Assembly (NCBI RefSeq): GCF_000327485.1 | Contig: NC_019943.1 | Span: forward strand, 806,001 to 870,000 | Direction: 5' to 3' | From: Methanoregula formicica SMSP | Lineage (GTDB): Archaea > Halobacteriota > Methanomicrobia > Methanomicrobiales > Methanospirillaceae | DNA length: 64,000 nucleotides | Shown here: positions 7,083 to 50,871 of the stretch, piece after piece | How the letters are laid out: each line of letters starts with the position of its first letter | Numbering within the stretch: position 1 is the stretch's first letter | Translations under genes and position numbers: made by a program | The notes under the pieces: model-generated | Told to the model about the DNA's origin: nothing | The model's input: only the letters and a program-made list of their open reading frames with translations | The model's database searches: none

Positions 7083-7564
7083 ACGCATCCCGGATCTGCG
7101 GACCGGCCTTCATTCAGCTCCGGGCCAAAGACCGTACGAGAACCGGATATACGGCAGATTAAAACAAAAATCGGCCTGATATCGGAATTGCTGTATCGGG
7201 GCAGGACGATCGGGACTTGTTTCCGGGGCTGGGAAACCGGGATCCGGCGGGGGCCGGACGGTTATGCATGCGGAACCGTGAACGGGCACGCGAACCCGGG
7301 CAAAGGAGCGGTATTGCATTGACAAGGGAACAGTTCCTGAAAAAGATCCCGCTCTTCCGCGTTCCGGAGCCAAAAACCCTGCCTGGTAGGAATGACGTGC
7401 AGCTGCTTTGCGCGTGCCCCACACCAAATATTTCCCGAACCGCCTGTTGATATCGGCCAGGGTATTTTAAAAGATCCTATCGAACGCACCCCCGGGTGAG
7501 CGCAAAAGAGCAGAGACCCTATAAATAGGTTTTTTGAACAGAACGCCAATCTAGGTACAGGAAC
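7083..7564. promoter_or_regulatory. Intergenic; TATA box for mntA-hepT at its end
   Basis: No convincing gene in about 480 bases. A strong TATA element (CTATAAATAGG, about 7519-7529) sits some 36 bases before the ATG at 7565, so transcription should begin just before mntA. A short segment near 7161-7182 (AAAACAAAAATCGGCCTGAT) matches the end of the acylphosphatase-like gene at 13417-13437, probably a fragment. Confidence 0.5.
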
Positions 7565-7867
7565 ATGCGAACCGATACCGATATCTATGATATCATCATT
7601 CGGAAGCGGCACGAGATCCTATCCCTTGCAGAGCGGAGGGGTGCGAAAAACGTCCGTATCTTTGGATCCGTGGCACGAAAGGAAGCCGGCCCGGATAGCG
7701 ATATCGATCTCCTTATCGATCTGGACCCAGACCGGAGCCTCCTGGATCTCGGAGGACTGGCAATGGATCTGTCGCAGCTGCTTGATCACCCGGTAGATGT
7801 CGTGACCGAAGCGGGACTCCGGGAGCGGATACGTGCCCGCATATTAAGTGAAGCCCGCGCATTATGA
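7565..7867 (+). CDS. mntA: MntA-type minimal nucleotidyltransferase antitoxin
   Basis: This 100-residue protein has the polymerase-beta nucleotidyltransferase motif GS-X10-DXD: '[15 protein letters not shown]' near residues 35-49. In characterised MntA-HepT systems the antitoxin adenylylates the HEPN toxin and silences it. The gene overlaps the following HEPN gene by four bases (ATGA), the standard arrangement. A strong TATA box lies upstream. No frameshift or lost motif is visible, so the pair appears functional. Confidence 0.85.
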
Positions 7868-8181
7868 GAGACGATCCCGGGCGTGTACTGGATATCCTTG
7901 AGGCGATTGATAGAATCGATAAAGGAGCGGTCAAAGGAAAGGATTTTTTTTATCACGATGAAATGACCCAGGTCTGGGTAATCCATCACCTCCAGATCAT
8001 AGGAGAAGCAGTAAGGGGGATTTCACCGGAATTCCGTATGGCACACCCGGATATCCCGTGGTCGGAAATTATTGGCATGCGGAATATCCTGGTCCATCAC
8101 TATTTTGGTATTGACCGGGATGCCATCTGGAAAGTCGTAGAACACGATCTGCCGATATTAAAAAAGCAGTTTTCGCGCTAG
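7864..8181 (+). CDS. hepT: HepT-type HEPN ribonuclease toxin (DUF86)
   Basis: This 105-residue protein matches the DUF86/HepT family: helix-rich, with '[18 protein letters not shown]' and the RX4-6H active site '[12 protein letters not shown]' near residues 78-89. HepT is an RNase whose activity is controlled by adenylylation by the MntA partner. Translation is coupled to mntA. Its stop overlaps the end of a DUF3344 leader remnant on the other strand. Confidence 0.85.
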
Positions 8182-8294
8182 GTCCGGTTATGGCATAACC
8201 TCAAGGTCGGGGGGGTTTCCGGTGAGGCATTTGCCCTGCCCTTCAGCAGGTACGAGAATCTCCCGAGTATGCTTTCTGTTCTTGTTGTTTCCAT
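8178..8294 (-). pseudogene. N-terminal remnant of a DUF3344 surface gene
   Basis: The minus strand reads METTRTESILGRFSYLLKGRA, matching the first 21 residues of the DUF3344 protein (METKRTESRLGRFAALLKGRA), then runs into unrelated sequence and a stop at 38 codons. The signal-peptide core is missing. It marks a further copy of the leader unit. Confidence 0.75.
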
Positions 8295-8319
8295 TATTCT
8301 TCTCCATGTCCGCAGGGAA

Positions 8320-8775
8320 CCGGTCCTGCCTGCATGAGCTGACAGACATACGACCCGTGAATGATAATTATCATTCAGCAATTCCGGCACGTACCAAAAG
8401 GGGGGACATTACCATCCCGATAACCACGCGACAGAAAATGCAGACCCCAATCCAGAAGATTGTGGAGATCGTCACACGGACTGCAGATCCTGATCGAATC
8501 ATCCTTTTTGGCTCCCGGGCCCGGCGGAACAATAAAAAACAGAGCGATTATGACATATGCGTAATCAAACGGGGGATTACCCTGCGGCGGGATCTTGCAA
8601 TGCAGATCTATCGCAATCTCTATGGAGTCGGAGTTGCGGTGGATGTCATCGTAGAGACGCCGGATGCGTTTGATGAGCTCAAAGACAATCCATTCCTCAT
8701 CTACCATGATATTGCCCACCAGGGAAAAGTGATCTATGAGAAACCGGTTGCTTGCTCAGGCAGTGGCTGGGCCGG
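8320..8775 (+). repeat. 456-bp direct duplication, copy 1
   Basis: Nearly identical to 10543-10998 (constant offset of 2223 bases); only a few substitutions are visible. It includes about 118 bases upstream of the nucleotidyltransferase start and most of that gene. The duplicated blocks bracket the DUF234 ATPase gene. Confidence 0.9.
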
Positions 8776-8881
8776 GGGAAGCGGGATACGTGGTGCAGTA
8801 TATAGACTGTCCCATGCAATAGGCAAATTTGTATACAAACTACGCTACCTTCGGGAGTGGATTTTCCTGCGGGTGCGATAA
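8438..8881 (+). CDS. Nucleotidyltransferase-domain protein, copy 1 (altered C-terminus)
   Basis: From the ATG at 8438 the protein has 147 residues. It carries GS-X10-DXD ('GSRARRNNKKQSDYD' near residues 25-39), so it is a minimal nucleotidyltransferase. Residues 1-112 or so match the copy at 10661, then the frame continues into unrelated sequence up to 8881. No HEPN partner follows; an ATPase gene begins 38 bases later. The family normally pairs with HEPN toxins. The fused tail suggests the 3' end was lost when the duplication formed. Confidence 0.7.
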   Translation: MQTPIQKIVEIVTRTADPDRIILFGSRARRNNKKQSDYDICVIKRGITLRRDLAMQIYRNLYGVGVAVDVIVETPDAFDELKDNPFLIYHDIAHQGKVIYEKPVACSGSGWAGGSGIRGAVYRLSHAIGKFVYKLRYLREWIFLRVR

Positions 8882-8918
8882 CAATGATTATATCCATAAT
8901 AATTACAATCATAATCAT

Positions 8919-10295
8919 ATGAGGTTCTATGACCGGGAAAAAGAACGCGGGCTCATGGAGCAGCTGTACAGGACCGGGCCGTCATTTCTTGTTATTACCG
9001 GCAGGAGGCGGGTGGGAAAAACCGAATTGATAAAAGAGTTCTGCACGGACAAACCCGCTCTGTATTATTATGTCGACCAGAACAAGAGCATAGACATTTT
9101 AATGGAGGAGTATGGGCGGTTTACTGCCGCAAACCTTGACCTGCCCGAATATATCCGGCTTACCTCACCGGAAACCCTGCTTGAATTTCTCCTGTCGTAT
9201 GAGAAACCTCTTGTTGTCGTTTTCGATGAGTTCCAGAGGTTTTTAAAGATTGATCCCTCGTTCATTTCGCAGCTGCAGCGGTTCTGGGATCTCAAAGGAA
9301 AAAAATCCCGTATCTTCCTTATCATCTCCGGCTCATCCGTCGGGATGATCCGGAAAATCTTTCTTGAAGGGGGTGCGCCGCTCTTCAAGCGTGCAGACAA
9401 CATTCTCACGCTGGGTCCTTTCGGTCCAAAAGAATGCTTTTCTGTCCTTGCCGATCTTGGCATAACCGATCCCGCAGTACGGCTCGATCTCTATCTCCTG
9501 TTTGGCGGGACAATCTATTATTATCCGTATCTTTTCAAGTACGGTTGTACCGATCTTGAGAGTGCCCTTGATACCCTTCTCCTTTCAGACCTGGCGCCAC
9601 TCCGCCGCGAAATGAGCGATGTGCTCATCGAGGAATTCGGAAAGGAGCATGCAACGTACTACGAGATCCTTGCTGCAATCGCAGAGGGAAAGTGCGCCCA
9701 GAAAGAGATCGCAGATTACACGCACCTTGAACCGACTTCGTTACCTTCGTACCTCCGCGATCTCATCGATCTTATGGGGATCATCGAGTACCGGGTTCCG
9801 GTTACAGAAATTGATCGTCGTTCAAAGATGGGACGTTATTTTTATTCAGATAATTTTTTCCGGTTCTATGCACGGTATATCTACCGGAATATGAGCCAGT
9901 ACCAGAGCGGACAGTATGCACCCCTCAAAAAACGGGTTCTTCAGGAATGGAGGGCATTTTCCGGCTGGGCATTCGAAGAGATGGTACGGACACTTCTTCG
10001 CGAGGAACTCTCTGCCCGGTATGAACATATCGGATCGTGGTGGAACCGGAGGGGAGACGAGATCGACCTTCTCGCACTCAGCTCGCGTGGGTCTCTTGCC
10101 ATTGAGATCAAAAACCGCGAACTCTCTCTTTTTGAATCACAAAAAATCCTCGCGGACCTCGGAAAGAAGATCCCGCGTGTCAAGGGTTTGTCTGGACCGG
10201 TAACTCTGGGCCTTGCTGCCCGGTCAATCGCGGGAAAAGAGATCCTGATCGATGAAGGGCATTTTATTCGCGAGCTGACCGATATGGGGCTTTAA
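8919..10295 (+). CDS. Archaeal AAA ATPase with C-terminal DUF234 nuclease-like domain
   Basis: The 458-residue protein starts at ATG 8919 (MRFYDREKERGLM); the frame is open to 8829 but the extra part is low-complexity. The ATPase domain (ATPase_2) has Walker A 'GRRRVGKTEL' (about residues 29-38) and Walker B 'LVVVFDEFQ' (about 108-116). The C-terminus carries DUF234, with a PD-(D/E)XK-like core 'GDEIDLLALSSRGSLAIEIKN' near 390-410. This archaeal family is frequent near mobile or defence loci; its function is unproven. It lies between the two copies of the 456-bp duplication, so it may have moved in with them. Confidence 0.85.
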   Translation: MRFYDREKERGLMEQLYRTGPSFLVITGRRRVGKTELIKEFCTDKPALYYYVDQNKSIDILMEEYGRFTAANLDLPEYIRLTSPETLLEFLLSYEKPLVVVFDEFQRFLKIDPSFISQLQRFWDLKGKKSRIFLIISGSSVGMIRKIFLEGGAPLFKRADNILTLGPFGPKECFSVLADLGITDPAVRLDLYLLFGGTIYYYPYLFKYGCTDLESALDTLLLSDLAPLRREMSDVLIEEFGKEHATYYEILAAIAEGKCAQKEIADYTHLEPTSLPSYLRDLIDLMGIIEYRVPVTEIDRRSKMGRYFYSDNFFRFYARYIYRNMSQYQSGQYAPLKKRVLQEWRAFSGWAFEEMVRTLLREELSARYEHIGSWWNRRGDEIDLLALSSRGSLAIEIKNRELSLFESQKILADLGKKIPRVKGLSGPVTLGLAARSIAGKEILIDEGHFIRELTDMGL

Positions 10296-10542
10296 AAAAG
10301 GGTTTGCCCGCCGTTTCGTACAAACCTGATTGAGACGAAATGGTACCCCGTACACTATAGTGGAATGACACACGGTCTCCTTCTTCGCGCGCCACACCCC
10401 CGGAACACCACACAGTCTGCCGACACCATGCCGGCAGGGAATGATTCCCGCTACATACATTAACAGAACAGGATCCGGCCCGTGTTATCGTTACATCCGG
10501 TGATATCGATCTCCTGCTCCTTGTGCCCCGGGACCGCGGGCG
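10296..10542. other. Intergenic, possible nucleotidyltransferase scrap
   Basis: No full gene. The stretch near 10485-10520 translates to 'SGDIDLLLLV', reminiscent of the DXD strand of a nucleotidyltransferase, directly in front of repeat copy 2. This might be a leftover of another antitoxin gene. Confidence 0.35.
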
Positions 10543-10998
10543 CCGGTCCTGCCTGCATGAGCTGACAGACATACGACCCGTGAATGATAATTATCATTCA
10601 GCAATTCCGGCACGTACCAAAAGGGGGGACATTACCATCCCGATAACCACGCGACAGAAAATGCAGACCCCAATCCAGAAGATTGTGGAGATCGTCACAC
10701 GGACTGCAGATCCTGATCGAATCATCCTTTTTGGCTCCCGGGCCCGGCGGAACAATAAAAAACAGAGCGATTATGACATATGCGTAATCAAACGGGGGAT
10801 TACACGGAGGCGGGATCTTGCAATGCAGATCTATCGCAATCTCTATGGAGTCGGAGTTGCGGTGGATATCATCGTAGAGACGCCGGATGCGTTTGATGAG
10901 CTCAAAGACAATCCATTCCTCATCTACCATGATATTGCCCTCCAGGGAAAAGTGATCTATGAGAAACCGGTTGCTTGCTCAAGCAGTGGCTGGGCCGG
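10543..10998 (+). repeat. 456-bp direct duplication, copy 2
   Basis: Copy of 8320-8775 at an offset of 2223 bases. In this copy the nucleotidyltransferase gene ends soon after the repeat and a HEPN relic follows, so this copy probably keeps the ancestral context. Confidence 0.9.
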
Positions 10999-11014
10999 GC
11001 AAGGAGTAACCTGA
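10661..11014 (+). CDS. Nucleotidyltransferase-domain protein, copy 2
   Basis: This 117-residue protein has the same GS-X10-DXD motif as copy 1 and differs from it at only a few positions (for example Leu to Arg after 'RGIT' and Val to Ile after 'VAVD'). It ends at 11014 with a normal stop shortly after the shared part, so this is likely the original gene. Its natural partner is a HEPN protein and a damaged HEPN frame starts 12 bases downstream. Family members act as antitoxins by modifying the HEPN toxin. The gene could still be expressed but has no intact partner here. Confidence 0.75.
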   Translation: MQTPIQKIVEIVTRTADPDRIILFGSRARRNNKKQSDYDICVIKRGITRRRDLAMQIYRNLYGVGVAVDIIVETPDAFDELKDNPFLIYHDIALQGKVIYEKPVACSSSGWAGQGVT

Positions 11015-11025
11015 GTCGGGCCGCA

Positions 11026-11407
11026 ATGGGAAAAACCGGTCCTGATGTTGTCTACGAAGACCTTTGTTTTGATTTCAAGACCGGTGTTCACCAGGCTTGA
11101 GGAGAAGGCATAGTGATGAAATCACACTGCCTGCGACAGTCAGCAGGCTGCAGAAAAATCTCTCAAGGCGTTCATGGTTCTCAACAATCTTGTTCCTTCA
11201 GCCACGCATTCCCTCTCCCTGCTTACGGAAACGCTTGAGAAAAATGGCATAGATATCCTTGGAGAAGTAAAGGGAGCAGTTGGACTTTCTTACTATGCTG
11301 TGACAACCCGGTATCCCGGTCATTATGAACCAATTGAAGAACCGGAATTCCTTCAGGCACTATCCATGGCGAAGCAGGTTGTTGCATGGGTTGAGAGCCG
11401 GTTCTGA
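11026..11407 (+). pseudogene. Broken HEPN-domain toxin gene
   Basis: An ATG at 11026 opens 'MGKTGPDVVYEDLCF', typical of the first HEPN helix, but the frame stops at about 11100. The next HEPN part is readable from about 11135: 'QQAAEKSLKAFMVLNNLVPSATHSLSLL' through 'TTRYPGHYEP' to 11407. Stop codons separate the parts, so the coding frame is interrupted. The ATG at 11174 could allow expression of only a C-terminal piece. It follows the nucleotidyltransferase at 10661, its expected antitoxin partner. Confidence 0.7.
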
Positions 11408-12039: not shown

Positions 12040-12297
12040 GTGCCCTTCAAAATTTTTATCAGATTCAAGGTAGCATTACTGTCTATTGATATAATCTTTA
12101 AAGTCGTCATAACACCGGATACTGAAGATGGGGGGTACACGGTCAGCTGCCCGGCACTCCCCGGGTGCCATTCCGAAGGGGAGAGCATGGAGGTGGCACT
12201 GGAAAACATCAAAGATGCCATTGAAGGATGCGTTGCCGTGCTGAACGAGCGTGCGCACCGCAGGCAGGGCAGCAAAGTCGTCGAAGTATCCGTATAA
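12040..12297 (+). CDS. hicB: HicB-type antitoxin (second family member)
   Basis: The protein is 85 residues if the GTG at 12040 is the start; no in-frame ATG precedes the domain. The HicB core is 'IFKVVITPDTEDGGYTVSCPALPGCHSEGESMEVALENIKDAIEGCV'. It is unrelated in detail to the HicB pair at 2.9 and 4.2 kb. The true start may lie closer to 'IIFKVV' with a rare initiation codon. The gene ends 11 bases before hicA, giving the hicB-hicA order. Expected role: neutralise the downstream HicA. Confidence 0.75.
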   Translation: MPFKIFIRFKVALLSIDIIFKVVITPDTEDGGYTVSCPALPGCHSEGESMEVALENIKDAIEGCVAVLNERAHRRQGSKVVEVSV

Positions 12298-12308
12298 ATC
12301 CGTATAAG

Positions 12309-12530
12309 ATGGCAAAACTTCCCGTTCTATCTGGTCACGCTGCAATAAAAGCCTTCAGTAAAGCCGGTTTTACCAGCAGCTGGCAGACAGCAAGACATGT
12401 CATCATGGAAAAAGCTGGTATGGAAGTTACTCATTCTGTTCCGCTTCATAAGGAACTGAAACGCGGGACGCTTCGGAATCTTATCAGGGATTCCGGACTT
12501 ACTGTGGATGAGTTCGTTGCGTTGCTCTGA
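12309..12530 (+). CDS. hicA: HicA-type toxin (second family member)
   Basis: This 73-residue protein has the HicA fold: 'LSGHAAIKAFSKAGF', a histidine in 'TARHVIMEKAG', then 'VPLHKELKRGTLRNLIRDSGLTVDEFVALL', the typical HicA C-terminus. The catalytic His is in 'RHVIM' near residue 30. The gene is intact and coupled to the hicB directly upstream. It belongs to the common bacterial/archaeal HicA group, unlike the variant at 2628. Confidence 0.85.
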   Translation: MAKLPVLSGHAAIKAFSKAGFTSSWQTARHVIMEKAGMEVTHSVPLHKELKRGTLRNLIRDSGLTVDEFVALL

Positions 12531-12795
12531 TTATGAGACCCGACACCCAATGTATGCCGTCCAACGCCCCTCCCGCTCACCGGGCTCCTGTCTTGCTGTT
12601 ACCGGGCTTGTATCCATGAACAACCGGATCGGGGGCACGCGATCCCATGGAGGTCAATGAATACGGATGATGGTATGCCTGTCTGCCACCAGCGAAACAG
12701 CAGCGGAATGCGGGGTGCGCGTGGATATGTCCCCATCGCAGGTCCTGGCCGCTCCGGAGACTATTTAATCCATACAATGAAAAATATATACAATC
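12531..12795. other. Intergenic, promoter likely at its end
   Basis: No gene is visible. An AT-rich block near 12763-12795 (with 'ATTTAATCCATACAATGAAAAATATATAC') is a likely promoter for the following gene. Confidence 0.4.
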
Positions 12796-13440
12796 ATGAA
12801 GATGCAGGCAGTCATCACCGGTAAAAAAGTCCATGACGTCGGGTACCGGGTGTTCCTGCTTGAGAAATCGCTCGAACTCGGTTTCCAGAGATTTAATGCA
12901 AGAAACCAGGTGCAGGACAACGGTCAGCAGGTAATCGTGCAGTATGAAGGCGAACCTGAACGTGTGGAAACGTTCAGTGCCGTTGTCCGCAAGGAACATC
13001 CCCCGGATGCAGATATTTCCGATATTGCCTTTGAACCGTATGAGGGGCATGTCATCTCCATCACCGATTATATGCATATGATCCAGATTGCGCAGCTCTC
13101 CAAAGGGATCCCGGCAATCATCAGTATTGATAAAAAGCAGGATCGGATGCTTGAGAATCAGGATCAGATGCTTGAGAATCAGGATCAGATGCTTGAGAAA
13201 CAGGATCGGATGCTTGAGAAACAGGATCAGATGCTGGGGAAACAGGATCAGATGCTTGAGAAACAGGATCAGATGCTTGAGAAACAGGATCAGATGCTGG
13301 GGAAAATGGATCGAATGGAAGCATCGATCACGGGCGAGATCCACGACCTGCGTACCGACCTGCGATCTTCCTTTGACCGGAAATTATCCGTTATTGAACA
13401 GGATATCCAGCAGATCAAAACAAAAATCGGCCTGATGTAA
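12796..13440 (+). CDS. Acylphosphatase-like protein with heptad-repeat coiled-coil tail
   Basis: This 214-residue protein has an N-terminal acylphosphatase-like domain (about residues 1-90): 'VHDVGYRVFLLEKSLELGFQ' corresponds to the family's VxGVGFR loop with its catalytic Arg, and 'RFNARN' carries the expected Asn. Residues about 113-175 are eight near-perfect seven-residue repeats of the KQDQMLE type plus a degenerate one, predicted to form a long coiled coil. The C-terminus ('IHDLRTDLRSSFDRKLSVIEQDIQQIKTKIG') continues as heptads. Acylphosphatases hydrolyse acyl phosphates; the fused tail suggests oligomerisation or docking to another protein. The gene stands alone. Similar archaeal proteins with variable repeat number may exist; I cannot check. 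Confidence 0.7.
   Translation: MKMQAVITGKKVHDVGYRVFLLEKSLELGFQRFNARNQVQDNGQQVIVQYEGEPERVETFSAVVRKEHPPDADISDIAFEPYEGHVISITDYMHMIQIAQLSKGIPAIISIDKKQDRMLENQDQMLENQDQMLEKQDRMLEKQDQMLGKQDQMLEKQDQMLEKQDQMLGKMDRMEASITGEIHDLRTDLRSSFDRKLSVIEQDIQQIKTKIGLM
13138..13304 (+). repeat. 21-bp coding minisatellite
   Basis: About eight tandem 21-base units of the type CAGGATCAGATGCTTGAGAA lie in frame within the acylphosphatase-like gene. Units differ by single substitutions (Arg/Gln, Asn/Lys, Glu/Gly codons). Unit length equals one heptad, so copy-number change keeps the frame and the coiled-coil register. Confidence 0.9.
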
Positions 13441-14354
13441 GAAACAATCCCCTTTCCGCATGATATACCGGTCCTGCTAATTCCGGTTTAATCCCTGACA
13501 ACAACCCTTTTAGCAATTACAGCCACCCGCTTATATTCCTGCCTTATCGATACGAATAATCTCTCTCTGGTACCTTGCAGGACCGTTCTCCCGGGGGAAG
13601 CATCATACCTGCTGAATAATATCGTTCATAATAATGGACATATGTTCAAAAAAATGAACGTCCTGGAGACTTCTTCTTTTGTAATTTTCACGTTTCTTAG
13701 CCGGAATTGCCGCAACTCGTGCCATGCTCGCGAGATCGCTAGTGTCCTTCCATTGAGTACCGGTGCTGCGAGCGGGTATCCCCGGGTAATGGAGCTCCGG
13801 AAAAGAGAATCCGATTATATTCGTTTATCTTCAGGTCTTGAAAGCGATATCATCATATTTTATGGCCCGGGTGCTGGCGGGAGTACCCGGTTAATTCCTG
13901 CCCGGGCCGGAATTTATCCTTCACGTACAGTATGTCCGGTGCTGTTATGCACAATACACAATCCATAGTACTGGAAAATAGTAATTCAGTTCTCAGGTAT
14001 TGTTACAGATAACGGACATCAGTATTACATTATCTAAGGTCATAGTATATTTATGATTTTCATATCGGGAACGTATGAAAACATATAAGGAAAAAACATC
14101 ACCCCGTGCCCGGGAGGATCGCCCGGCGGGCCGCTTTGTCCCGTCATGGGAAACCGTTCTCCGGCGATACGGATCCCGTAAGGCTGGCCGGTGTATGCCG
14201 GGCAGCCGTCCGGCCGGAATGATGCCAGCCTGTTTAGTAATACTTTTCCACCAAATTTGTAACACTTTTTTTAGAAAAGTATTACAAAGTAGTAAAATTA
14301 AGAAAATATTTATCATGAATGAATGAAAACCAGATTGCTACAGGAGATCGAGAC
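13441..14354. other. Long intergenic stretch with a vapC relic
   Basis: No confident gene in about 900 bases. Around 13538-13605 the sequence 'CTTATCGATACGAATAATC' resembles the start of the vapC at 3788 (LIDTN codons) and then degrades. Two open frames (13642-13968 and 14075-14326, + strand) have no family signature. A TATA-like element (AAAATATTTATC, about 14303-14314) probably drives the next gene, with transcription starting near 14335. Confidence 0.5.
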
Positions 14355-15167
14355 ATGAAATCGTCGCTTGGAAAGATGACCCGGAACGAAGCCGGGGCAA
14401 AGGAATTTCTCCTGAAGGCCGGCATACTCCACGGGGTCCAGCCCTGCATGCTCTGCGGCAGCACGCACGTGAGTCCGGCCGGGCGGGGACGGACACGGTG
14501 CAATGACTGCGGTTTCACCTGGGGCTTGCGGAGGGGGAGCATCATCGAGAACACGCGCCTCACCTACCTCCAGTTCATCCGCATCGCCCGCCTCTTTGCC
14601 GATGAGATCCCGCCTGCTGATGCTGCGGAGCGGCTCCATATCAGTCTCTCCGCTGTAGACCATCTTTACCACCGGATCCGCCTCTCCTTTGCCGATGGGA
14701 TGGCCGGGACTGCTATCCTGAAGGAGCCGGGCACCGAGCCGATCTACCCAAGGGCCCGGCCCGGCCCGGTAATCTTCGGCATCCACTACAGTCCCGAGAC
14801 CGTCCGGATCGAACCGCTCCCCCCGGCGACAACCGACCTGATCGTCAATATGGACATCCCGTGGCCCCTCCGGGGGAACATCCTCTTCATCGACACCTGC
14901 GAGAAGACCTACCACGGCCTGATCGCGTATTACCCGGACCGGGAGAACCAGGAAGTCGTCCTCGTCCAGCCGAAGAACCGGACGCACTGGCCCCCGCTTA
15001 CGGTCTTCTGGAAATACGCCCAGACCAGCTGGTCGCGGCACCGGTACCTGAAACGGGACGCTGTCCCGGCGTATGTCCAGGAACTCGCGTTCCGGTACAA
15101 CCACCGGCATAAGGACATGTTCCATGCAATCCTGGAACAACTGTCCGGATACGAACAACCCGCATAA
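14355..15167 (+). CDS. IS1595-like transposase-derived zinc-ribbon protein
   Basis: This protein has 270 residues from ATG 14355 (an in-frame ATG at 14319 lies before the probable transcription start; GGAG at 14343 supports 14355). The N-terminus has a zinc ribbon 'CMLCGSTHVSPAGRGRTRCNDCG', followed by a helix-turn-helix-like region ('PPADAAERLHISLSAVDHLYHRIR'). The C-terminal part resembles an ISXO2/IS1595 transposase domain and ends with the characteristic 'LAFRYNHRHKDMF'. A clear DDE set is not visible. No terminal inverted repeats were found around the gene. I suspect a domesticated transposase, perhaps a regulator of the surface-protein operon that starts 145 bases downstream. Confidence 0.65.
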   Translation: MKSSLGKMTRNEAGAKEFLLKAGILHGVQPCMLCGSTHVSPAGRGRTRCNDCGFTWGLRRGSIIENTRLTYLQFIRIARLFADEIPPADAAERLHISLSAVDHLYHRIRLSFADGMAGTAILKEPGTEPIYPRARPGPVIFGIHYSPETVRIEPLPPATTDLIVNMDIPWPLRGNILFIDTCEKTYHGLIAYYPDRENQEVVLVQPKNRTHWPPLTVFWKYAQTSWSRHRYLKRDAVPAYVQELAFRYNHRHKDMFHAILEQLSGYEQPA

Positions 15168-50040: not shown

Positions 50041-50871
50041 ATGAATCCCCTTTTTTTGCACCATCACGACCATGCTGTCCCCCCTGATGCACCGGGAGGA
50101 AAGATCGCAGGGTCTTCCCCGTTCACTATCGCGGTCTCGGGAAAAGGCGGTACCGGAAAGACGACGTTTTCCGCGCTCTTAATCCGGGAACTGGTTTCGC
50201 TGGGCGAGAGCCCGATCCTTGCCGTGGATGCGGACCCGAATGCAAACCTCCACGAAGCACTCGGCCTTGTAGTGGGCGAGACGCTCGGGTGCATGAGAGA
50301 AGACGCTTTCAACCGGCAGATCCCCGGTGGAATGGGCCGCAAGGAGTACCTCCGCTACCGGTTCCAGCAGGTGCTTGTCGAAGCCGAGCACCTGGACCTG
50401 GTTGCGATGGGGCGGCCGGAAGGACACGGATGCTATTGTTTTGCCAACGATGTTCTCAGGGAATCCATGCTGCAACTCGGGCAGCATTACCGGTTCCTGG
50501 TCATCGATACCGAGGCAGGGATGGAGCATATCAGCCGGGGTACTATCGGGCACCCCGACCTGCTCCTGATCGTAAGCGATCCCGGTGCCCGCGGCCTCCG
50601 GACAATCGTGCGAATCCGGTCGATTGCCGCCCAGCTGGGCCTTGAGGACGGCCGTATCCATACCGTAATCAACCGGTTCAGGGGCGATCTGGCTCCTGTC
50701 GGGATCGGGGATCGGGATCCGCTCTGCGTGATCCCGTATGATCCAGAGATCGAACAGGCCGACCTTGCGGGTGAGCCGGTTTCCCAGATCGCTACCGCGA
50801 GCCCTGCCCGTACCGCGATCCGGGATCTTGCCCGGAAAATCCGGGAAATGGCCCGGAACGAACCCGGATGA
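50041..50871 (+). CDS. CooC/MinD-like metallo-ATPase
   Basis: This 276-residue P-loop protein has the deviant Walker A 'VSGKGGTGKTT' (about residues 32-42), 'ILAVDADPNANLHEALGL' and the CooC-type CXC motif in 'GHGCYCFANDVLR' (about 129-141). CooC proteins mature Ni-CO dehydrogenase; the CXC pair binds metal at the dimer interface. No CO dehydrogenase gene is in the window. The N-terminus 'HHHDHAVPPD' is His-rich and could bind metal. It is 48 bases after hmd on the same strand, so they may share a transcript. Confidence 0.8.
   Translation: MNPLFLHHHDHAVPPDAPGGKIAGSSPFTIAVSGKGGTGKTTFSALLIRELVSLGESPILAVDADPNANLHEALGLVVGETLGCMREDAFNRQIPGGMGRKEYLRYRFQQVLVEAEHLDLVAMGRPEGHGCYCFANDVLRESMLQLGQHYRFLVIDTEAGMEHISRGTIGHPDLLLIVSDPGARGLRTIVRIRSIAAQLGLEDGRIHTVINRFRGDLAPVGIGDRDPLCVIPYDPEIEQADLAGEPVSQIATASPARTAIRDLARKIREMARNEPG

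Follow-up and report, generated by a model that had tools for sequence, protein, structure and literature searches.

A stalked acylphosphatase-like protein of Methanoregula formicica with a heptad-coding minisatellite belongs to a recurrent archaeal family, in which array and C-terminal foot appear to behave as a cassette

The gene described here lies in a 64,000-base stretch of the Methanoregula formicica SMSP genome (hereafter the window, in which all positions are counted from its first base unless a locus of another genome is named). It specifies a protein with an acylphosphatase domain, or head, followed by a predicted helical stalk that includes a tandem heptad array. Within its own genome, a single contig of 2,820,858 bases, no other locus matched the protein over its whole length. 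The parts of the gene, and the basis on which each was placed, are as follows.

12796..13440, + strand: whole gene, 214 aa, acylphosphatase head and helical stalk (ORF and translation)
12805..13047, + strand: acylphosphatase domain, residues 4-84 (Pfam PF00708, AF2 elements, Foldseek)
12847..12849, + strand: codon of R18, the catalytic Arg position within VHDVGYR (family alignment)
12904..12906, + strand: codon of N37, the catalytic Asn position (family alignment)
13060..13137, + strand: predicted start of the long helix, linker ITDYMHMIQIAQLSKGIPAIISIDKK, residues 89-114 (AF2 helix from 89)
13138..13312, + strand: 21-base minisatellite, 8.3 copies, heptad L-E-K-Q-D-Q-M per unit (Tandem Repeats Finder)
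13313..13437, + strand: conserved C-terminal 'foot' helix, LRTDLRSSFDRKLSVIEQDIQQIKTKIGLM and preceding residues (array phase in relatives; Ile-rich core)

The upstream neighbours, at 12040-12297 and 12228-12530 (+), are genes for a HicB-like antitoxin and a HicA toxin according to Pfam, and an MNT-like nucleotidyltransferase and a HEPN protein that adjoin each other (10523-11014 and 11174-11407, +; Pfam) represent a possible second toxin-antitoxin pair. The product of an ORF at 14319-15167 (+) weakly resembled, below the Pfam cut-offs, a TFIIB-like zinc ribbon and a helix-turn-helix, and is possibly transposase- or regulator-like.

The acylphosphatase-like domain that the preliminary description had read in this ORF was recovered by Pfam profile search, with PF00708 matching residues 4-84 at E 6.7e-7 (score 30 bits, cut-off 22.5). 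A single-chain AF2 model made with 19 sequences (mean pLDDT 91.8, pTM 0.56) places an acylphosphatase fold up to residue 81, followed by one helix of 123 residues (89-211). The elements of the predicted head (E2-11, H17-27, E32-40, E43-51, H54-66, E73-81) follow the ferredoxin-like order beta-alpha-beta-beta-alpha-beta, and Foldseek placed acylphosphatases at the top of its PDB matches (E 1e-5). The fold and the active-site Arg and Asn are held in common with the acylphosphatases (PF00708) of Sulfolobus and Pyrococcus (PDB 2bjd, 1w2i). However, the matching solved proteins are about 90 residues long and stalkless, while here the domain runs into the predicted 123-residue helix. An ordinary acylphosphatase occurs in the same genome, with an open frame of 92 aa and the match at G000:C1:970405-970653.

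The reading of the repeat as 21-base units, each encoding one heptad, also held. Tandem Repeats Finder gave, at 13138-13312, a period of 21, 8.3 copies, 92% matches and a score of 280, and it reported one further array in the 64 kb, with a score of 61. Base identity at a lag of 21 was 0.91 in the array, compared with a maximum of 0.42 and a mean of 0.28 in other 182-base stretches of the window, sampled every 5 bases. In translation there are eight units led by ML, in the order MLENQDQ (twice), MLEKQDR, MLEKQDQ, MLGKQDQ, MLEKQDQ (twice) and MLGKMDR. An antisense ORF of 255 residues (12577-13344, - strand) crosses the array and is stop-free through the repeat in that frame; two of the three reverse frames of the array repeat are without stops.

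Judged from the genomes scanned, stalked acylphosphatases are a widespread archaeal family. The whole-protein scan of 84,980 species, one genome for each, returned 35 loci; distant members were missed because the scan was seeded by six short peptide patterns. Among the 35 are loci labelled Methanoregula, Methanoculleus, Methanospirillum, Methanothrix, Methanoperedens, Archaeoglobaceae, Thermoproteota, Caldarchaeum and Aenigmarchaeota, and 34 are archaeal. The exception, L032, is labelled Bacteroidetes bacterium ADurb.Bin145, which is probably a binning error, because L033, from a Methanomicrobiales bin, encodes an identical protein. A close head was found in 9 of 100 genomes searched and, within the genus, in 5 of 39, many of which are incomplete assemblies (the present genome is included in both counts). 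A query with the tail matched 104 of the 392 genomes of the phylum, where weak hits may in part come from unrelated coiled-coil proteins. An acylphosphatase head was present in the same ORF at 26 of 30 tail-query loci, the window's own included and the head of L101 being partial; the other four are cut, three by a contig end and one by masked bases. The fusion had at first been called unusual, a wording not kept here since it recurs as an archaeal family, of which 74 members were collected. This set was obtained after removing exact duplicates, and leaves out HypF-locus hits, ORFs with masked-base runs and ORFs with fewer than 60 residues past the head. A few of its members in all (L046_3960, L009, L107_879) are cut or damaged.

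Two classes of head can be distinguished. Class A, to which the window protein belongs, typically has VHxVGYR and an extra residue ahead of the ARN motif, while class B heads look closer to ordinary acylphosphatases. All 25 class A members submitted matched PF00708 at E 0.001, and the linker ITDYMHMIQIAQLSKGIPAIISIDKK is mostly conserved across the class A alignment. When 100 heads were placed in a tree, 33 of them, essentially class A and without exception from the stalked set, formed a clade with a support of 0.98; class B was intermixed with ordinary acylphosphatases at low support and HypF was not monophyletic, the deep nodes being unreliable. The tree is thus compatible with one origin of the stalked heads or with several. 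The L109 locus (7278-10984) holds five stalked acylphosphatase genes in a cluster; one of the heads is class A and the other four are class B, and a 79-residue ORF is predicted between the first two family genes.

Arg and Asn are the residues with which acylphosphatases bind and hydrolyse acyl phosphates. Loss of the Arg in homologues had been named beforehand as a finding that would count against the preliminary description; across species it is kept in 72 of 73 resolvable heads, the single replacement being VGYL in L105 (1075-1752, +), and the Asn is kept in all 74 members. The glycine of the phosphate loop is not conserved to this degree. It is retained in 12 of 73 members (the window protein has VHDV, not V-Q-G-V), whereas 26 of 27 other acylphosphatase domains of relatives (14 ordinary, 13 HypF) possess it; the exception among the 27, L071, clusters with class B heads in the tree. 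In the 61 heads where it is replaced, the substitute is Arg, Asp, Lys, Glu or Asn in 54. Thus, as aligned, the catalytic pair is conserved and the phosphate loop is changed, a departure from ordinary acylphosphatases, and with the Gly in 12/73 members against 26/27 other domains, catalysis may therefore be weak, altered or lost. These changes, together with the residue inserted ahead of the ARN motif in most class A heads, would fit a non-catalytic domain of acylphosphatase fold whose role is to sense a phosphorylated ligand or to bind a protein, the stalk being purely a scaffold. We regard this as an unlikely reading, though one to be taken seriously, as a scaffold alone would not need both the Arg and the Asn that are so consistently maintained.

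Repeat number differs widely among relatives, from 0 to 16 units by one strict motif count, so that the fixed number that would have spoken against the preliminary description was not found across species. That description had further proposed that repeat changes keep both frame and register, and this is visible between relatives. Among 41 close pairs (head DNA more than 80% identical; genes are shared between pairs, which are therefore non-independent), the length difference was a multiple of 7 residues in 38, and zero in 4 of these. Of the three exceptions, L016/L006 is an effect of start trimming (the full lengths are 186 and 172, a difference of 14), in L111/L044 the C-terminus is longer by one residue, and the 3-residue difference of L098/L108 is real. 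Near-identical genes do differ in repeat number: the heads of L021 and L022 are 99.6% identical in DNA, those of L092 and L109 98.1%, and each pair is one unit apart. For exact LEKQDQM units, DNA identity was 97.5% over 33 comparisons inside arrays and 84.9% over 1,293 comparisons of units from different arrays. The arrays are evidently homogenised per lineage, as by slippage or unequal exchange, while the encoded unit is constant. In paralogues, other heptads have been expanded at the same place (LDLQHQS in L008, IGLQKET in L010, LAVSKEN in L042, LQVGKET in L068, INASNKE in L009), and the period is conserved more than the residue letters. The stalk of L117 (3167-3820, -) repeats an 11-residue unit, MNENLSGKIDR, in place of a heptad.

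The heptad consensus, from 284 in-phase units of 57 proteins, is L-x-K-Q-D-x-M. Position a is Leu/Ile in 278 of the 284, c is Lys in 281, d Gln in 270, e Asp in 279 and g Met in 238, with b and f varying freely. Since the units were located by their KQD motif, the search itself partly determined c, d and e, and it left b, f and g unconstrained and a loosely constrained. The freely varying b and f share one helix face, as would be expected of an outer face. Judged by its residues, the array is not a canonical coiled coil, because d is occupied by Gln, not by a hydrophobic residue, in 270 of 284 units; in the foot, but not in the array, a and d are both hydrophobic. The core of the foot has Ile at four positions in 51, 43, 62 and 38 of 69 members, and the first of its five positions is Phe in 39 and Leu in 20 of the 69. 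Ile at both a and d favours trimers, following the GCN4 rules. Sequence searches found no convincing homologue of the stalk among solved structures. A class B member with LAVSKEN units (L042), modelled by AF2 as a single chain, had a mean pLDDT of 80.6, with predicted helices at 94-148 and 155-231 and a break at 149-154.

Across relatives the heptad period is kept and, with some exceptions, stays in phase with the helix that flanks it. Taken modulo 7, the spacing between the array and the LRxDL-like motif of the foot fell into classes 6, 3, 0, 5 and 4 in 32, 15, 4, 2 and 1 of 54 proteins; the foot anchor was the first motif match past the array, which is probably the wrong motif for L024 and L029. 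Counted by cluster (27 at 60% head identity), classes 6, 3, 0 and 5 had 16, 7, 3 and 1 members. The chance of a top class of at least 16 of 27 at even odds is 8e-8, a rough guide, as the clusters are still related. The two main spacings between array and foot, 13 and 24, differ by 11 residues, and 11-residue steps are tolerated in coiled coils; class 5 (2 of 54) is explained by neither one nor two such steps. Taken together, the array seems to be mostly phase-locked to the C-terminal foot helix.

These data also bear on whether the array is a neutral minisatellite, heptad helices simply tolerating slippage, with a length that has no function. The 0 to 16 range of unit number would fit this, as would the scarcity of the close head within the genus (5/39, many assemblies being incomplete) and the expansion of several unrelated seeds (LDLQHQS, IGLQKET, LAVSKEN, LQVGKET). 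Against it, LEKQDQM recurs with different codons in genomes labelled as different phyla, position a hardly varies and g is mostly Met, in contrast to the variable b and f, and the register to the foot is mostly kept. A functionless length is in our estimate possible but on balance improbable.

A new finding is that, in the comparisons made, the array and the C-terminal foot behave together as a cassette. Feet were compared over 1,953 pairs with a measurable foot, and in the 1,401 pairs whose heads were less than 40% identical, the median foot DNA identity was 0.46. The four top pairs combined class A and class B heads, 21-25% identical, with a foot DNA identity of 0.92-0.95 over 35 codons, so that a class A head can sit on a foot whose DNA is 95% identical to the foot of a class B protein when the heads are 22% identical. 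Compared in 21-base blocks from the stop codon towards the start, L042 and L109_7218 agreed at 17-21 bases per block across foot and array, falling to 14/21 in the first array block and to chance level (4-6/21) upstream of the array edge; the 300 bases downstream showed no similarity past 11 bases. L097 and L093 had the same similarity profile. These patterns are best read as recombination or gene conversion of the array-and-foot cassette. Cassette sharing was confined to one genome group (L042, L084, L092, L093, L097, L109). L085/L087, with a foot DNA identity of 0.82, is a weaker second candidate for an exchange, and in L028, a same-locus pair with different heads, the feet are 48% identical in DNA.

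The genomic surroundings were compared using 583 ORFs around 48 sources, all against all, with ORFs called by a crude longest-ORF rule. Nine sources, the window's among them, gave no neighbours to the list used for the family scans below because this rule hid the family gene, which a longer antisense ORF may displace. No recurrent operon partner, and no neighbour pointing to a pathway, was found in this comparison; beside the family itself, sets were common to 3-5 loci at most, and several of these reflect synteny within one clade (L014, L017, L020, L045, L119). Scans for protein families covered 88 neighbours (87 of 136 listed and one between two L028 family genes), and the most frequent Pfam families, among the 25 of 136 matched families listed, were found in 3 of the 88.

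Aspartyl phosphate is an acyl phosphate, and the chemistry would therefore fit an aspartyl-phosphate phosphatase of two-component signalling, whose foot or array pairs with the coiled coil of a histidine kinase while the head dephosphorylates the receiver. The absence of a conserved neighbour would also suit an orphan signalling part. However, kinase and receiver families are absent from those 25 listed Pfam families of the 88 neighbours, and we hold this role to be very unlikely. A mobile or defence gene (phage, plasmid or toxin-antitoxin cargo) could be proposed from the HicAB and MNT/HEPN-like pairs upstream in the window and from the patchy distribution of the family. Searches of phages, plasmids and viral contigs with the window protein gave no match, nor did phages and viral contigs with a class B query or viral contigs with a Methanoperedens query; plasmids gave the class B query one distant match, covering the head only at 38% identity. 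No PADLOC family, among the first 25 of 71, was present in more than 3 of the 88 neighbours (the top one in 3). With phages and viral contigs matchless, a single head-only plasmid match and defence neighbours that do not recur, a mobile or defence origin was rejected as highly improbable.

The explanation that we consider probable, with real room for doubt, is that of a stand-alone, cytoplasmic, homo-oligomeric stalked acylphosphatase, whose stalk changes in length while staying in register. The head, keeping the Arg and Asn, would act on acyl phosphates, an activity suggested by these residues, and a cytoplasmic location would agree with a sequence in which no signal or membrane segment is obvious. 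From the head, the chain would run on into a single helix of about 123 residues, or about 18 nm at 0.15 nm per residue in the AF2 single-chain model. This helix would comprise the KQDQMLE heptad array and the Ile-rich foot, by which the chains would be held together, most likely as a parallel trimer if the Ile at core positions is a guide. Slippage or unequal crossing-over of the 21-base unit would presumably be the means by which whole heptads are gained or lost; the comparison of relatives shows that stalk length changes in such steps, each worth about 1 nm, with frame and coiled-coil register intact. In one genome group, the array is also the joint at which different heads have been placed on one cassette. 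We can only guess that stalk length sets the spacing or clustering of the heads, or of a partner that binds to the foot.

A more ambitious reading, which we put forward tentatively and which is rather more doubtful than not, is that the minisatellite serves both as a ruler, with 1-nm steps in a polar-cored stalk, and as a joint where unrelated acylphosphatase-type heads are swapped, in frame and register, on one array-and-foot cassette. If true, an archaeal cell could keep several heads on a common foot (compare the five-gene L109 cluster).

The nearest counterpart in working is NeuO of E. coli K1, an enzyme that likewise carries a repeat-coded, variable run of heptads. In NeuO, a slippage-prone repeat encodes RLKTQDS heptads with a natural range of 1 to 31, and catalytic efficiency rises linearly with heptad number (PMC3046976). 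An earlier coiled-coil model of the heptads was, according to the same text, unconfirmed by the crystal structure, which spoke against a triple coiled coil (PMC3046976). This is a caution for the present array too. The two systems differ in several ways: enzyme and host are unrelated; the NeuO DNA unit is 7 bases, which makes it a frame on/off switch too, whereas the 21-base unit here keeps the frame; and the NeuO heptads are N-terminal and not seen in the crystal, whereas the present array is predicted to be helical and mostly in phase with the foot. Nearest in kind is the Red Borg acylphosphatase, a PF00708 protein with a 7-residue tandem repeat (KLVEGQN) in an archaeal setting, given one table line (PMC9879509). 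Borg repeats are described there as mostly disordered, and homologues in Methanoperedens or other microbes as almost never repeat-bearing (PMC9879509); here, by contrast, the genes come from genome assemblies of many archaeal lineages, and a helix is predicted for the array. The Red Borg protein was not found in the viral contigs searched. Trimeric coiled coils with Asn triads, which are reported to bind chloride (PMC12933892), likewise have polar core residues, with Gln instead in nearly every heptad here. An acylphosphatase was also noted on the contig of the hamus gene, in a paper that does not contain the word 'coiled' (PMC4460559). No account of a stalked acylphosphatase family was found in the literature covered, which leaves out most subscription journals, and no paper was found with KQDQMLE-type strings or with the combination of acylphosphatase, coiled coil and tandem repeat.

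Change of length by whole heptads, with both frame and register safe, is an unusual property for a protein, and in NeuO changes of heptad number set enzyme activity (PMC3046976). On a small and well-understood enzyme fold, the family provides a natural gradation from 0 to 16 strict-motif units in methanogens and other archaea, making functional as opposed to neutral stalk length directly testable. Head exchange at the array suggests, in addition, that repeats may be a route to new domain combinations. Elsewhere in the window, a different 21-base unit is present in two copies at 50818-50858 (+), at the C-terminal end of a gene (50041-50871) that carries the P-loop motif GKGGTGKTT.
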